64,000 bases of DNA, from the NCBI GenBank assembly GCA_019915135.1, contig JAHLMK010000012.1:992001-1056000 (forward strand). The letters are read 5' to 3'. Of the stretch, positions 660 to 56,780 are shown in pieces; the stretch's first letter is position 1, and each line of letters begins with the position of its first letter. The notes beneath the pieces were generated by a model. The model ran no database searches. It was not told where the DNA came from and worked only from the letters and a program-made list of their open reading frames with translations. Source of the DNA: Strobilurus pachycystidiatus (taxonomy: Eukaryota; Basidiomycota; Agaricomycetes; Agaricales; Physalacriaceae). Made by a program: the position numbers and the translations under genes.

Positions 660-1610
660 ACATTCCACGTGAGCCACTCTTCGTAACTCAGTTTGAAGTA
701 ACGTAAAAGTTGTTCCTTACTGTACCTTTCTACATACGTTCAACTTCAAGTTAGGGAGCACAAGTATCAGACCATAGGCCATACATAGCTGTCTGCTTCT
801 CGCTACATGAAGTCAGGCGCTCTGACATCTCTCGTACGAGGATTTCCTCCTGACTTGCGGCCTGGGTCCAATGGGACAAGCTTTCATGTGCGTTATCATG
901 CTCTTCGCGACTAGCAGACGACGCCGATTCACAAATCTCGTCAGAATGGGCCCCAGAAGGCAGCTGCAGAAGTGGCGCGCTTAGGAACCCTTCCTCGCGG
1001 CCTCAAGGTCCAGTGCGGTGTCCACTACACACCTCCGAAACTCAACTTTGGATGGGCCATGAGGGAGGAAGAGCTCACTGCTTTCCTCGAGTCGCAGCAA
1101 CCCGAATTGCTTGCCCTCTGCTCGCCTTATGACTTTGTGAGACAATGCTACCACGCGCCGAGTATCGACATCCGCGCTACCATGAAGCTCATCCACAAGC
1201 ACTTTGTCGAAGTGCTTGACATCAACCCCCTCTGGAAACCGCGCATGGAACTTAAAATTGAGATGGGCTGCCATCAACTCGACTGCTTGTCTATCACAAA
1301 TACATATGTGAACGGAAATGGCCTGCCGCCTCTGGAGGTCATCGATTTGATCAAGAATTTCTTCCAATTCAGCGAAGGTCCCCGCTGGTTCTTGGATTAT
1401 CTGCATGGGTCCTGGAGGACACGATGTATCTCAAGAACGAAGGCAGGGGAACTCTGTATCACTAACAAGTTTTGAGGTGTCAAGGAAACGTATCAGTCTC
1501 CAAAGTCTTTCACTGACGACATCGATGCAGTAGTCCAAATAACCGCCTCCATGGACGCACACTCAGGTTCTTGCTATCCCACCTTGGTCCGTCCTCCCAT
1601 GAGATCCTGT
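660..1610 (+). repeat. Dispersed repeat copy 1 (inverted partner at about 55895-56780)
   Basis: Roughly 950 bases that match the reverse complement of about 55895-56780. The match starts near the shared CGTGAGCCACTCTT, includes the leader before the start codon, the 57-base intron, the coding part and the downstream CCTCCATGGACGCA. Outside these limits similarity fades. The copies differ by substitutions and small indels, so the duplication is not recent. Limits are approximate because they were judged by eye. Confidence 0.65.
807..1475 (+). CDS. Small two-exon gene of unknown function, paralogue of the broken copy at 55952-56667
   Basis: Proposed exons are 807-887 and 945-1475, joined in phase 0 across a 57-base intron (GTGCGT...GTCAG). 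Exon 1 encodes a short leader beginning MKSGALTSLV; exon 2 continues in the same frame without a stop, giving about 203 residues. The intron and both exons are recognisable in the inverted copy, which supports the model. The best conserved block between copies is EEELTAFLES, MKLIHKHFVEVL, NPLW and NTY.NGNGLPPLEVI. No family was recognised. The last 30 residues differ in frame between copies, so the true C-terminus is uncertain. It could be a fragment of a larger family member. Confidence 0.5.
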
Positions 1611-14619: not shown

Positions 14620-17600
14620 TCAATAGTTCTTCTCAGCAAGGATGAATTTCTTGAACATGGCGAACACAATTAGCCTAAAGCAAGCTCAGTCAACAGGAGC
14701 GAAACAATATCAGAAGCACTTACATGACCGAAACCCTTTGAACACCGTTCATTCTTTCATTGCGGCGCGGAAGATCTTGCCATCGCCCAACGAACCAGTC
14801 GAAGCGGAGTCCGAGCAAAAGGAGGTCACCCTGTGTCAAGACTCCGATAGTCTTCCCGAATTCGCTCAACATCCTGATCACTGTACTTTCGAGGACAGCG
14901 AGGACTCGCGACAACCCAGTGACCAGCTCCCTATTCTTTCGATCTCCGGGTATGGCTTTGAAATCAAAGTCTTTGAGGTATAGAAGACGATAGAAGTCAT
15001 GGATGAAATTGGCTATCCATGTTGAAACTGCAATCCTGGCCGCGAGGAAGAGAAGATCCAGACGGCGGGCAAGGGCACCGACAGCCGCCAAGATGATGGC
15101 CACAAGAAGCAACTCGGCTGAGTTGGGCGAATAGTCTCGATAAGTCGACTGAGGGAACTTCTTGAGCAACCCACTGTCACCGAATCCCCAACCATAGAAC
15201 CGAACGTAGTCTCGACGGCCATTTCTCCACCAAGGATGGACCACACGAATATCCGGAGCAGCGAAGAACACGAAATCGTCGCGGCGTTTGCGAACGCAGA
15301 AATCAATGTCTTCGCCCCCACCTGTCTTTGGGAATCCAAGATCAAACACAATACCGTCGTTGTTCCTGCGCGCCATCAAGTTGGCAGTTACGCCCCAGGG
15401 GACATCCTGAGCGATCTTCTCAGCAATGTTCCAGAAATACGTGACGCCGGAAAGGTGCACGGCCGACGTGTAGATCGTGTCAGCGGGAGGAAAGTAGACA
15501 TTGCCGACGAAGCCAGCTGCCTCGGGATGAGCACGAGCGCTCTCCTCCGCTTTGAAGAGCACATCCGGCTCCGGCTGGACGTCATCATCAAGGAAGAGGA
15601 CCCACTCTGCCGCAGACTCTTCGATGCCTCGGTTGCGGGATGCTGAAGCACCAATGTTGACGCTGTTGCGTCGAATGCGAACATTGGTGAGATGTCCATA
15701 TTTAAGCTCTAGCTTATCGGCAGCTTTCGACAAAGGATCGTCGACAATAATGATGAACATAGTCGAGACCGCAGGCGAAGACTCGAGTGCAAGGATGCGC
15801 TCTAGAAGGGGGATACTGACGCGGAAGGACGGTACCACGATGTCGATAGTGAGCTTGACCTCGAGATCTAGCTTCTGCGACGACACCCACTCAGTGGTGA
15901 TGGCGGTGGCTTTGTCAAGGACCTCGTAGGTCCAGCCGGCGGTTCGTTCTTTGTTGTATCGTGCCGCAACACTTCCGCCAATTGTGTTACGGAGCTCGAC
16001 GTCCATGAGCATCCGAGAGGAACCCCATCGCCTGTAAAGCTGGAACAAGAAGGGGTCACCGTCCTGGTTGATGAATGTGTCCGGAATGACTTCGCCTCCA
16101 AAGATGTCAAGATGCGTACGATGGACGACCGGGAACGTCGGCATTCCGGGGAACGACAAGTCTCTGAAGGCAACGCAACCGAAGCCAACCGGAGCACCTG
16201 TTTCTTCAGCGATGCTCTCAAAACCACGATGAACCTTCGACATCCATCCATCCGAGAATAGCTCGACATCGTCGCCAAAGAGGACAAAATACGTGTTTTG
16301 CGAATCCTCATACGCCTTTCGAGCACATTGGCGCCAAAGACTGCAGACACGACCGGGCTCTTGATATCCTATAAGCGTAGTGACGGGAATATCTGTGTCA
16401 ATGAAAATGCGCTCGGCCTCATTCATGCCAGCGCTCCGACGCAAGAGATAGGCGTCATCGTGATCGATGAGGAGGTAAATCTTGAGAAAGAAGGTCACCT
16501 TGTTGCCCGAAGTGCCAAGACGGTCACTTTGGGTGGTCTGCATGAGAGATGATCTGAACCGTCGCAAGTTATCGAGACAAGTTTCCTCGGAGGACGCCGA
16601 ACGGGATGTGATCGGGAGGAGTATGGCAAACGTGATAGCTGTGTTGAAGTCAATGAGCTGACTCTGGCCAAAGGCGTCCGACAAAGCGCTGTCGAAGCCA
16701 CTGACACAAAGCTTGTCGAGTTCCCCCGACATCCAAACGCAAGTAGCCTTCATACCATCCTCGAGAGTCATAGTAGGAGCCCATGGATCTAAACATCGCA
16801 ATGCGAAAGCATTATCAGAGTTGCGGGCTGCAACACCCAAAGGTTTATCTTCATTGTAGCTGAACGTAACATCGTCGGCGGAGAGCCCAACGCAGTTGAG
16901 CGCGATCTCCGCCAGTCGGATGATAGGAACGGCGTGGTCTGACCCAATATTGACGGCTGTGTCGCAACCGGATGCGAGCAATGCGAGGATGCCCGCGACA
17001 CAGTCGTCAATATAGAGGAATGACCTCCGCTGGTTCCCGTCGCCCCAGATTTCGTATCTAGGTTTTCGATCGTCACCGTACTGGTCGCGGATGCGCCGCG
17101 CGACAAGCGCCTTTCGAAGCAAGGCGGCGGGGGCCTTCTCGCGGCCGTTGTACCAGGCGCCGCCTGGTCCGAAGATGTTATGGAAGCGTGCAATACGGAT
17201 CGCGAACCTTGTTTTGTACTGAGAAAGAACGAGCTCCGTGTTGAGCTTGTCCAGGCCATATAAACCTTGGGGATGGGGAGTGACGCCGGTGGCCCAAACA
17301 TCTGCCTCGCGAAGGGAAACATCGTCAGAAGTGGCGGATAGCCTAGCAGGCCGCTCGGGGTAGACACATGCAGAAGAAGCATAGAAGAACAGACGGATAT
17401 CGGCCGCCTCAGCCGCCTCGAGAAGTCGGATAGTCATAGTATGGTTGTCGTCGTAAAGAGCGAGGTCATTCGCGGAGTGGATCGTACCCATTCCGCCCAT
17501 GTTGGCAGCGAAATGCAGAACAGTACCACATTCCTTCAGGACCTTGGCACTGAAAGCTGCATCTCGAAGGTTACCGATGCAATACTCGACATCGGGAATG

Positions 17601-17798
17601 AGATCGCCAGATGGAGGGTGGATGTCAGCAACGCGCACTCGGTGACCATCGGTAGAGAGACGTCGGGCGACAGCGGATCCCTATGCATGGACTTAGAAAA
17701 GCGTCCAGTGGGAATGTTCAACTCACAATGAAACCGCAGCCACCAGTAACAAGAACAATTGAAGTCATTGGCTCCTTGGGTTCGAAGTTCGATTGCAT
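14620..17798 (-). CDS. Trimodular sugar enzyme: GDP-mannose 3,5-epimerase-like domain fused to two glycosyltransferase-like domains
   Basis: Exons 17727-17798, 14724-17680 and 14620-14674 give 1027 residues. Residues about 11-345 are an NAD-dependent epimerase with TGGCGFIG, HFAANMGGMG, FFYASSACVYPE (Cys 129), YGLDK (Tyr 165, Lys 169), RFHNIFGPGGAW, GREKAPAA (Lys 206), EIWGDG.QRRSFLYIDD and ARNSDN. This matches GDP-mannose 3,5-epimerase, including the Cys and Lys known to act in catalysis. Residues about 418-615 look like a GT-A-type domain with FGDDVEL (493-498). Residues about 633-850 are GT2-like with LFLDDDVQPE (722-724) and GGGEDIDFC (811-818). Hydrophobic segments at about 881-895 and 899-918 suggest membrane attachment. 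The last intron starts inside ATGTAAGT, so intron retention would stop translation after VSVM. Start could also be the internal Met at 17768. Divergent from the methyltransferase-GT8 gene. Confidence 0.9.
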
Positions 17799-18328
17799 AT
17801 TCGTAGTCCGTTGGAAAAATGGATCCTTGGTATCGAGGTCTTGATATGAGGAATCAGCAAGCGCCCGGAGAAACCAAGGCGGCTTCTCGCTGTAGATGGT
17901 TACTACGATGCATGCACTCTCGCAGCGATACTGGATGAGTATCACTGCAATCTCGCAGCGATACTAGGATGAGTATCACTTGGCCATTGAAAAGTACGAG
18001 AAACCAAGGCGGCTTCTGGCTGTAGATGATTCCTACCAGATGCTTCGACTTATTCCGCAGCACTAGGATGAGCGTCACTGAGATTGAATAGTACCTGACT
18101 CTTAGATGGAAGCCGGATCCAAGCTGTGCTGGGGGCAGAGTTGCGTCAGACATGAAACTGTCGTGAGATCCTATAGGCGTCTAGCCTCTAGGCCGCCAAT
18201 CCGAGGACACACGGGCTCCCAAGCTGTAGTCAGATGTCAGATGTGATCCCATCTTGTAGAGTCATTTCAAGCGCTTAATCTCACCAAAAGCCTGCATACA
18301 AATCCACACCCTCGTCTGTACATCCATA
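17799..18328. promoter_or_regulatory. Shared divergent promoter region of the two chimeric glycan genes
   Basis: 530 bases between the two start codons. The open frame that extends into this region from the minus-strand gene covers repeats and is not conserved domain sequence, so I treat it as leader or promoter. It carries the tandem repeats listed separately. Confidence 0.6.
17868..18079. repeat. Tandem promoter repeats, pattern A-B-B-A-B
   Basis: Element A (34 bases, GAGAAACCAAGGCGGCTTCT... ) occurs at 17868-17901 and 17998-18031 with two mismatches, 130 bases apart. Element B (about 28 bases, CGCAGCGATACTGGATGAGT...) occurs at 17919-17946, 17952-17980 and in a degenerate form at 18055-18079. 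They lie only in this divergent promoter as far as I can see. Confidence 0.75.
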
Positions 18329-19970
18329 ATGTCTCCCGCCGCAGAGTATCGCTTCACACCAACCCAAGACTGGTTTTCCGGCCATATCGAGTCGTGGCGC
18401 CAGCTCTTCCACCACGTTCGGACGCCTAGCCCTCGCATCCTCGAGATTGGGTCCTGGGAAGGACGCTCTGCCGTATTCCTGTTGACCGAGCTATGCAAGG
18501 AAGGCGGTGACCTCACTGCCATTGATCATTTTGATCTTATGCAGACAGCTGATGGGCGTGAGCGTGCCGAGAAATTGCGCCACAACCTCACCGCGACCGG
18601 AAAGCCATTCCGCATCATCGATGAGTTCAGCGTCCCAGGTCTAATGGAGCTTCTGAACGAGGAGATGTCGGCAACGGTTCCAGGCTTTGACTGGATTTAC
18701 ATCGACGGCTCGCATCGGGCTGACGATACCTTCCTCGATGGCGAGTTAGTCTGGCGCTTAGCGAGGAAGGATGCGATTATCATCTTCGATGACTATCACT
18801 GGCCAAAGGAGGAAGAGGGCGGGATGGAGCATCCGAGACGCGGCATCGATGCATTTCTGCAGCTCCATCAGAACGAATTCGAGACGCTCTCGCGGGAGGA
18901 AAACTATCAGCTGGTTATACGCAAGCTGACAGTGATGCGTATTGGGTTCTTGACAAAGAGGGCCATAGAGCAGAAGTCGCCGGACGAAGCCGTCGTCGAC
19001 TGCTTTGGTCAGAATATACTTCCCAGCAAGCCAAGATGACACTGATGTGAAATCCATAGAATACGGTATCAATCTAGCGTTTGCCGTCGATGGCGAATAC
19101 GCCATGGCGGCATCGGTGGCGATTTGCAGTGCGATCAAGCACGTCCAAGGGCGCTGCACCATATACATCTACAATTGCGGGATGTCTGAAGCTATACAGA
19201 CGAAGCTTCAGCTCTCTATTCAAAGCGTCGCAGAAGGAAAAGTTGACATCACTTACGTTTTCCTCGACCAGAATGAGGAAGACCTTTCCTTCAAGTTAGG
19301 TCCAGTGTGGGCGAAACTGGATCTGCTGAAGCGGCTTCCCATTGAAAGGGTGTTGTACCTCGACGCCGATGTTTTGGTTCGCGCAGAGCTTGCGCCGCTG
19401 TGGGCGAAGGACCTGGGTGGAAAATCGATTGGCGCAGTGCGTGATGCTGGTTTCCCGGACGGTCACGACGGCGTCGGGGAAGGAGGGTACTTCAATGCGG
19501 GCGTGCTGTTGGTCGATTTGGCGAAAGCAAGACTGCACCTTGATGACCTTTGGGTTACGGCTCAGGCCATGACGCAAAACACGTTCAAGGACCAGGACTG
19601 TCTTAACGTGCACTTCGCCGAAGACTGGGGCACCTTGGATGTGCGGTACAACGCGCAGGGACAAGGGACATACGCGAAATTGGACCACCGGTGCCAGGAG
19701 CCCTGTATCGTACACTTCACCGGACCTGTGTCGCCATCCATCGGGATTGTGTTGAATCCGTGGGTCCAACCCTACACAGCAAAGCCATGGGGATATGCAG
19801 GCGCTCCTGGAAATCCCTATGCCGAGGAATGGTGGACCGCGCTGGAAGATACAGCGTGGAGAGGCCTGCGAGATACTGAGGAATACAAGCTGAGTCGACG
19901 GCTGGAGAGGGAAAGAATCCTTAGTCAAGGCGGCAAAGAGCTAGACAACATGCTTGCGGACTTACGATGA
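18329..19970 (+). CDS. Bimodular enzyme: SAM-dependent methyltransferase fused to a GT8 glycosyltransferase
   Basis: Exons 18329-19007 and 19060-19970 (52-base intron, phase 1) give 529 residues. Residues about 1-225 form a class I methyltransferase: motif I LEIGSWEGRSAVF (E.G...G), DLTAIDHFD, GFDWIYIDGSHRADD and DAIIIFDDYHWP, resembling the Methyltransf_24 group. From residue 227 the protein is a GT8 domain: YGINLAFAVD.EYAMAA at its start, the metal-binding DxD in YLDADVLV (328 and 330), GYFNAGVLLVDL, DQDCLNVHF and the closing HFTG...P...NPW. Both modules look intact. No signal peptide or membrane segment is evident. The intron sits exactly at the domain junction, compatible with a gene fusion. 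Opposite orientation and shared promoter with the epimerase-GT gene suggest one pathway. Acceptor and methylation target are unknown. Confidence 0.9.
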
Positions 19971-55894: not shown

Positions 55895-56780
55895 CACGGA
55901 CCGAGGTGACAACAAGAACCTGGTATGCGTCCATGGAGGCGTTTATTTAGACTACTGCATTGATGTCGTCAGTGAAAGACCTCGGAAACTGGTACGTTTC
56001 GTGGGCACCTCAAAACTTGGTAGAGAGACAGAGTTCCCCTGCTTGCGACCTTGAGATATAACGTCTCGTCCAGGACCCATGCAGGAAATCCAAAAACCGC
56101 GTGGATCTTCGCTGAGCTGCTGGAAGTCCTTAACCAACTCGATGACCTCCAGAGGTGGCAGGCCATTTCCGTTCAGATATGTATTCGTGATAGTCAAGCA
56201 GTCGATTTGACGGTCAATTTTGGTTTCCGAGCGCGGCTCCCAGAGAGGATTGATGCCGAGCACCTCGACGAAGTGCTTGTGGATGAGCTTCATGGTAGCG
56301 GGGGTGTCGATACTGGGTACGCGGTAGCCGTCAATTGCAAGGTCATAAGACGAGCAGAGGACAATCATTTCGGGATGTTGTGACTCGAGGAACGCAGTGA
56401 GCTCTTCCTCGCTCATGTCCATCCAAAGTTGAGTTTCGGAGGTGTTTAGTGTATACCACGATGGACCTTGAGGCCGCGAGGAAGGGTTTCTAAGCGCGCC
56501 ACTGCTTCAAGTGCCTTATGGACCCCATTCTGACAAGGATTATGAGTTAGTGTCGTCTGCTAGTCGCGATGAGTATGAGAACGCACAAGAAACCCTGTCC
56601 CATTGGACCCAGGCCGCAAGTCAGAAGGAAATTCTTGGATGAGAGATGTCAGAGCGCCTGACTTCATGTTGCGAGAAAAGCAAACAGATATGGCTGGCCT
56701 ATGGTTTGATAGTTTCACTCCCTCACATGAACTGTAAAGAATAACTTTCAGGAAGCACGAAGAGTGGCTCACGCGAGTAT
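55895..56780 (-). repeat. Dispersed repeat copy 2 (inverted partner of about 660-1610)
   Basis: The reverse strand matches copy 1 from CGTGAGCCACTCTT down to CCTCCATGGACGCA, including a 57-base intron at 56530-56586 in the same position and phase. Ends are approximate. Confidence 0.65.
55952..56667 (-). pseudogene. Broken paralogue of the gene at 807-1475
   Basis: Exon 1 (56587-56667, MKSGALTSLIQEF...) and the intron 56530-56586 are intact. In exon 2 the frame reaches a TAA after VHRGIH, where copy 1 has a Tyr codon, and a single-base deletion follows near GGATGGACATGAG. Beyond that the original frame resumes as a long open stretch (SEEELTAFLESQHPE to SLTTSMQ). Two independent lesions relative to copy 1 argue for a pseudogene, unless an alternative 45-base intron removes both, which I consider less likely. 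Confidence 0.55.

Follow-up and report, generated by a model that had tools for sequence, protein, structure and literature searches.

What does a mushroom make with a single protein that resembles a GDP-mannose 3,5-epimerase (GME) at its N terminus and glycosyltransferases behind it? Such a protein is encoded in the window, by which we mean the whole 64,000-nucleotide stretch analysed (C12:992001-1056000 in the Strobilurus pachycystidiatus genome of 51.8 Mb and 61 contigs). The fusion is real, conserved and built of known parts, and it is undescribed as far as we searched.

Structure of the fusion gene

A preliminary description of this DNA had placed a three-exon gene for one fusion protein at 14620-17798. 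These coordinates and exons held, and the gene lies on the minus strand, which the description had left unstated (Table 1). The motifs quoted there were all found in the spliced translation, in which the GxxGxxG NAD motif reads GGCGFIG. The introns, placed from splice sites and homologs, would be 46 and 49 nt long, with borders GTGAGT..GCATAG and GTAAGT..CTTTAG. The third exon encodes a short tail, and its position matches the hydrophobic tail of a Hymenopellis homolog (P0001).

Table 1. Features of the fusion gene and its divergent neighbours, in window coordinates
Feature	Position	Strand	Details
Whole fusion gene	14620..17798	minus	three exons, 17798-17727, 17680-14724 and 14674-14620; 1027 aa + stop
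GDP-mannose 3,5-epimerase (GME) module	16703..17798	minus	assigned from sequence; residues about 1-350; S127, C129, Y165, K169, N192, K206, R243, R310
Middle module	15869..16642	minus	residues about 371-628; probable GT-A-like transferase, no Pfam family; conserved D430, D495 (GDDV)
GT2 module	15098..15853	minus	residues about 634-885; D722-D724, G811-D815, H839, W842
Strongest hydrophobic stretch	15068..15124	minus	residues 877-895; hydropathy 2.05; possible membrane helix
Last hydrophobic stretch	14638..14743	minus	residues 1004-1022; spans the second intron (14723-14675); hydropathy 1.62
Methyltransf_24 gene	18329..19039	plus	divergent neighbour; 1.2e-17; strongest of 7 genome stretches (lower bound)
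Glycosyltransferase family 8 (GT8) frame	18969..19970	plus	divergent neighbour; 1.6e-26; strongest of 4 genome stretches (lower bound)

Could two neighbouring genes have been wrongly joined? Adjacent separate proteins are annotated in Cerrena zonata (QCA50_011123/011124) and Agrocybe chaxingu (NLJ89_g3763/g3764). However, the middle exon by itself is an uninterrupted 986-aa open frame that holds all three modules. A search with the full-length protein scored 8000 candidates, of which 384 passed E 1e-3; the best 120 were listed, and all 120 are single predicted proteins that cover each segment (epimerase, middle, GT2 and C-terminal) to 70% or more. The modules thus stay together, and we give a joining error next to no probability. 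Judged from its sequence, this is one gene for a conserved fusion in which epimerase, middle module and GT2 module follow each other in that order, with hydrophobic stretches behind the last.

Those stretches correspond to the C-terminal helices proposed earlier. Above a threshold of 1.6, hydropathy peaks at residues 877-895 (2.05) and 1004-1022 (1.62), and also at 11-29 (1.66), 245-263 (1.67) and 653-671 (1.61), the last three falling within the epimerase and GT2 folds. In nine of ten relatives, every peak (one to three per protein) lies behind the GT2 module; the tenth, P0297, has an extra one at 344-362. Because peaks as high as the last C-terminal one occur inside the folds, it is chiefly the 877-895 stretch and the homologs that speak for a membrane anchor. 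With an NAD-binding fold that opens within the first 20 residues and the highest hydrophobic peak C-terminal to the GT2 module, all modules probably face the cytosol. Similarity to plant GMEs extends to about residue 368, and from about residue 375 the chain belongs to the middle module. The linker is thus short, and the donor is likely to be made close to its likely user.

Identity of the epimerase module

The Pfam Epimerase profile (PF01370) matches the N-terminal third of the protein at 2.8e-28. Among solved structures, five GME sequences match it at 2e-59 to 4.9e-57, the plant GMEs best; the next protein follows at 1.2e-11. We tested eight diagnostic GME residues (Arabidopsis numbers S143, C145, Y174, K178, N203, K217, R243 and R306). 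The Ser-Tyr-Lys triad (S143, Y174, K178) is present as S127, Y165 and K169, the Cys145 acid and Lys217 base as C129 and K206, and Asn203, Arg243 and Arg306 (an Arg here, not a Lys) as N192, R243 and R310.

These residues are kept well beyond the window. Among the 120 listed fusion homologs (best 120 of 384), 118 carry the complete set, and not one departs from C145, K217, R243 or R306; P0005 is gapped at three positions and P0097 has T instead of S143. An epimerase-only search, again with 120 matches listed, gave the same picture in its last 90, which keep all eight positions except for three gaps at R306. Many of the first 30 are fungal fragments, and this group has gaps and single substitutions here and there, one of them a Y for C145. 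As a side observation, P0005 is a second, shorter copy in Hymenopellis radicata, with its gaps at the epimerase Tyr, Lys and Asn; either this copy has diverged or its gene model is faulty.

The window epimerase is about 40% identical to standalone GMEs. In a 55-row tree, 49 GME rows were separated from six other short-chain dehydrogenases/reductases (SDRs) at 100/100. Within the GMEs, the fungal rows together with Racocetra, Glomus, Lentinula and P0145 formed a clade at 100/100, and P0207, a standalone GME, was its sister at 99/97. The module therefore groups with GMEs and not with another SDR group, and the catalytic Cys and Lys (C129, K206) are in place; the preliminary assignment stands, and we consider it highly likely that the epimerase is a GME. 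One database entry, Lentinula aciculospora P0130, is already named GDP-mannose-3,5-epimerase; the other entries bear generic names (NAD-dependent epimerase/dehydratase; glycosyltransferase family 2 protein).

The nearest competitor is GDP-L-fucose synthase (GMER/GER), likewise an SDR with a Cys acid and a double epimerisation. The enzymes differ in that the synthase has a His base and a Lys and needs the product of GMD. The best NCBIfam match of the epimerase is in fact a GDP-L-fucose synthase model (NF047922), at 63.7 bits and far below the cut-off of 500. In the whole genome, the best match of the bacterial GDP-fucose synthase model is also the fusion (67.1 bits, cut-off 500), ahead of pieces at C15:901903-902676 that we take to be the GDP-fucose synthase from their likeness to the eukaryotic enzyme. 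This model does not discriminate, because seven of seven other proteins from the GME match list also have it as their best match. The residues do: the available sections of PMC8787198 give the Cys acid for both enzymes alike, but a Lys base with an Arg for GME and a His base with a Lys for the synthase. At the eight positions, the fusion reads SCYKNKRR, with Lys at 217 and Arg at 306, versus SCYKNHRK for the probable synthase of the same genome (a pieced sequence). Together with the plant GMEs as best PDB matches, the parting of GME rows from six other SDRs in the tree, and a probable synthase and a GMD encoded elsewhere in the genome, this makes it very improbable that the module is a GDP-fucose synthase or another nucleotide-sugar SDR.

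The probable synthase, which has weak NCBIfam matches, lies about 5 kb from GMD-like stretches at C15:907895-909085; the two genes stand within about 7 kb (C15:901903-909085), as a small GDP-fucose cluster. In a tree, the probable synthase fell among the fungi on a branch of length 10, an artefact of its partial, pieced sequence, and this placement was not used.

The glycosyltransferase-like modules and their relatives

For TRANSFERASES, the GT2 module scored 44 bits on PF00535 (cut-off 23.3; 3e-11), in agreement with the GT2-like unit proposed earlier. Its conserved residues are D722-D724, G811-D815, H839 and W842. GT2 motifs are shared with the mycofactocin transferase MftF (TIGR03965; 53.8 bits, far under the cut-off of 280), from which the fusion differs in having a middle module and an epimerase ahead of its GT2 module. 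The GT2 part also matches chondroitin synthase (2z86), which has two transferase modules per chain, as the fusion does. Unlike in chondroitin synthase, the middle module of the fusion is not recognisable as a GT2, and a donor-making epimerase is attached.

The middle module is harder to place. In the Pfam profile search, the window copy had no match and none of nine middle modules matched a Pfam glycosyltransferase. A PDB profile search of the module returned no relative, the one match being a chance cupin (E 1.7). Five of the nine members of the middle-module alignment match phrog_14945, a glycosyltransferase family, with a best value of 6.8e-7; the window copy is not among them. The GT-A-like unit of the preliminary description thus draws weak glycosyltransferase matches from some relatives, while the window copy matches no glycosyltransferase profile. 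Conserved residues are D430, W473, D495 (in GDDV), P541, H547 and Y573. D495 is kept in all 120 listed fusions and in 99 of the 105 other rows with a letter there. D495, D722-D724 and GGGED are conserved in the fusions and nearly so in unfused relatives. We regard the middle module as a probable GT-A-like transferase.

Two more specific identities were rejected. A duplicated GT2 had a profile-profile probability of 0.4%. A TET-associated glycosyltransferase (PF20691, TAGT) was matched by 1 of 20 relatives, at E 0.0087, by none of the nine middle modules, and by nothing in the genome. Phage records searched for the middle module (P0341) gave no match at E 0.01, and viral contigs gave four loci with weak matches to the GT2 part only. 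PADLOC found nothing.

A search for the same architecture in other genomes, suggested in the preliminary description, found it to be common to many Agaricomycetes. The closest named relatives among the matches listed are from Hymenopellis (68%), Mucidula (65%), Guyanagaster (58%) and Armillaria (57%), and the named genera range from Armillaria and Amanita to Ramaria and Tulasnella; we take every genus named among the best 120 of 384 homologs to be an Agaricomycete. Both halves also occur in one protein of Glomus cerebriforme (P0281). No ascomycete is named among the matches listed in the full-length, epimerase-only and double-GT searches (best 120 each). In a 58-row glycosyltransferase tree (midpoint root, for drawing only), the Agaricomycete rows, those of Glomeromycotina and Endogone and a few further rows form one group at 99/98.

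The pair of transferase modules also exists without the epimerase. Among the matches listed, such double-GT units come from Klebsormidium nitens (40%), a Verrucomicrobiota metagenome-assembled genome (43%) and metagenome proteins; the unit can therefore work without a fused GME. The 58-row tree does not place one double-GT protein, P0312, as the sister of the fungi. In P0340, an 882-aa metagenome protein, the double-GT unit is followed by sulfotransferase domains (PF13469, PF00685), which suggests that its product, in another organism, is sulfated.

Among prokaryotes, the middle module looks rare. A genome scan found it in one locus alone (L003) among the best 80 of 249 related stretches, and a sample of 387 genomes of the phylum around the L003 genome contained it once, in that same genome. 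This Verrucomicrobia genome (G001) has an unfused double GT (L003), beside a gene that we read as presumably RadC-like, and, on a different contig, a GME with all eight residues (L098). Gene transfer, in either direction, is possible. The scan found no prokaryotic operon of GME and double GT among the best 80 of 249 related stretches.

Proposed route, alternatives and neighbouring genes

In the route we propose, the GME module would oxidise GDP-mannose at C4 with its bound NAD, the Cys129/Lys206 pair would epimerise C5 and C3, and reduction would follow. The main product would be GDP-L-galactose; the side products would be GDP-L-gulose and GDP-D-altrose. C4 oxidation, C5/C3 epimerisation and reduction are the GME chemistry given in the available part of PMC8787198, where characterised GMEs yield mainly GDP-L-galactose and release GDP-L-gulose and GDP-D-altrose as side products; by analogy with these enzymes, we expect the same activity and product ratio here. 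One fused transferase module would take the L-sugar from the locally made pool and the other would add the same or a second sugar; the outcome would be an L-sugar-containing glycan or glycolipid, built at the membrane. On balance, we read the protein as a membrane-anchored glycan synthase, probably cytosol-facing, with its own donor supply, and it seems rather likely that a fused transferase uses the GME product. The catalysis of the middle module, the donors of both modules, the cytosolic side, the local use of the donor, the acceptor and the glycan are what we infer, and not what we observed.

The transferases might instead use a side product of the GME, GDP-L-gulose or GDP-D-altrose, and the glycan would then carry L-gulose or D-altrose. 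GMEs do release both (PMC8787198, as available), and the sequence gives no sign of which product the transferases take; yet GDP-L-galactose is the main product of the characterised enzymes described there, and we regard a side product as an unlikely donor. Alternatively, an active GME might export its product to another use, for example an ascorbate-like compound, while the transferases use common donors and the fusion serves location or co-expression. The double-GT units without epimerase would fit this, as would the plant GME, which feeds ascorbate synthesis (PMC8787198, same part). However, the modules occur together in all 120 listed homologs, and the accessible text of PMC4396506 has the fungal ascorbate analogues made by other routes; we doubt that the GME product leaves the synthase.

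Returning to the self-supplying synthase, its neighbours may extend the route. The genome's best GT8 and Methyltransf_24 matches adjoin the fusion (Table 1), which suggests a small glycan cluster, perhaps of all three. The genome-wide stretches (at least seven for Methyltransf_24, at least four for GT8) were counted exon by exon, so the counts are lower bounds; four stretches match GT2, the fusion among them. A GT8 would fall within about 3 kb on either side by chance in about 5 of 10,000 cases (four stretches in 51.8 Mb, computed after the fact). The two plus-strand frames overlap (18260-19039 and 18969-19970) and may be one methyltransferase-GT8 gene: of 11 trial introns joining them, 19008-19059 (52 nt, GTCAGA..CCATAG) preserves the greater part of both frames, and none is compelling. 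More tentatively, then, Agaricomycetes and, among arbuscular mycorrhizal fungi, at least Glomus could use a self-supplying synthase of three modules to make an undescribed L-galactose- or L-gulose-bearing glycan or glycolipid, the divergent GT8/methyltransferase pair decorating the product in this species.

How does the fusion compare with known systems? Plant GMEs (AtGME, 2c59; 8sg0) and a bacterial GME (Methylacidiphilum GM35E) have the same fold family and the same eight residues as its epimerase, but known GMEs stand alone, whereas the fungal GME domain is fused to two transferase modules. Conversion of sugar nucleotides within multidomain, bifunctional proteins is familiar from plant RHM and bacterial ArnA. 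RHM and ArnA link conversion steps to each other; the fusion links conversion to transfer.

In the portion of PMC8787198 available to us, plants reach GDP-L-galactose through GME, which has a characterised bacterial member, and L-galactosyl- and L-gulosyltransferases are named as interesting search targets. The stem 'fung' is absent from the available text of that paper and of PMC6678494. The nucleotide-sugar enzymes of 491 fungi have been surveyed (PMC8092308, in part): the survey has ten interconversion clades, none of them a GME clade, and the fungal sugars that it predicts accordingly include neither L-galactose nor L-gulose. The earlier statement that no such route had been described in fungi agrees with our search: the literature covered (including PMC8092308, PMC6298397, PMC12295706 and PMC3144213, in their accessible parts, with most subscription journals outside its scope) held no description of a fungal GME or of a GME-transferase fusion. 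If our reading is right, the repertoire of mushrooms would gain a sugar nucleotide and a glycan from a conserved fungal GME with fused transferases. These transferases would be natural candidates for L-galactosyl- or L-gulosyltransferases, and a single chain would both make and use the donor.

Apart from this locus, two open frames, one close to either end of the window (915-1475, plus strand; 55952-56506, minus strand), code for proteins that resemble each other (69% identity over 111 aa, 5e-55), which points to a repeated gene or element.
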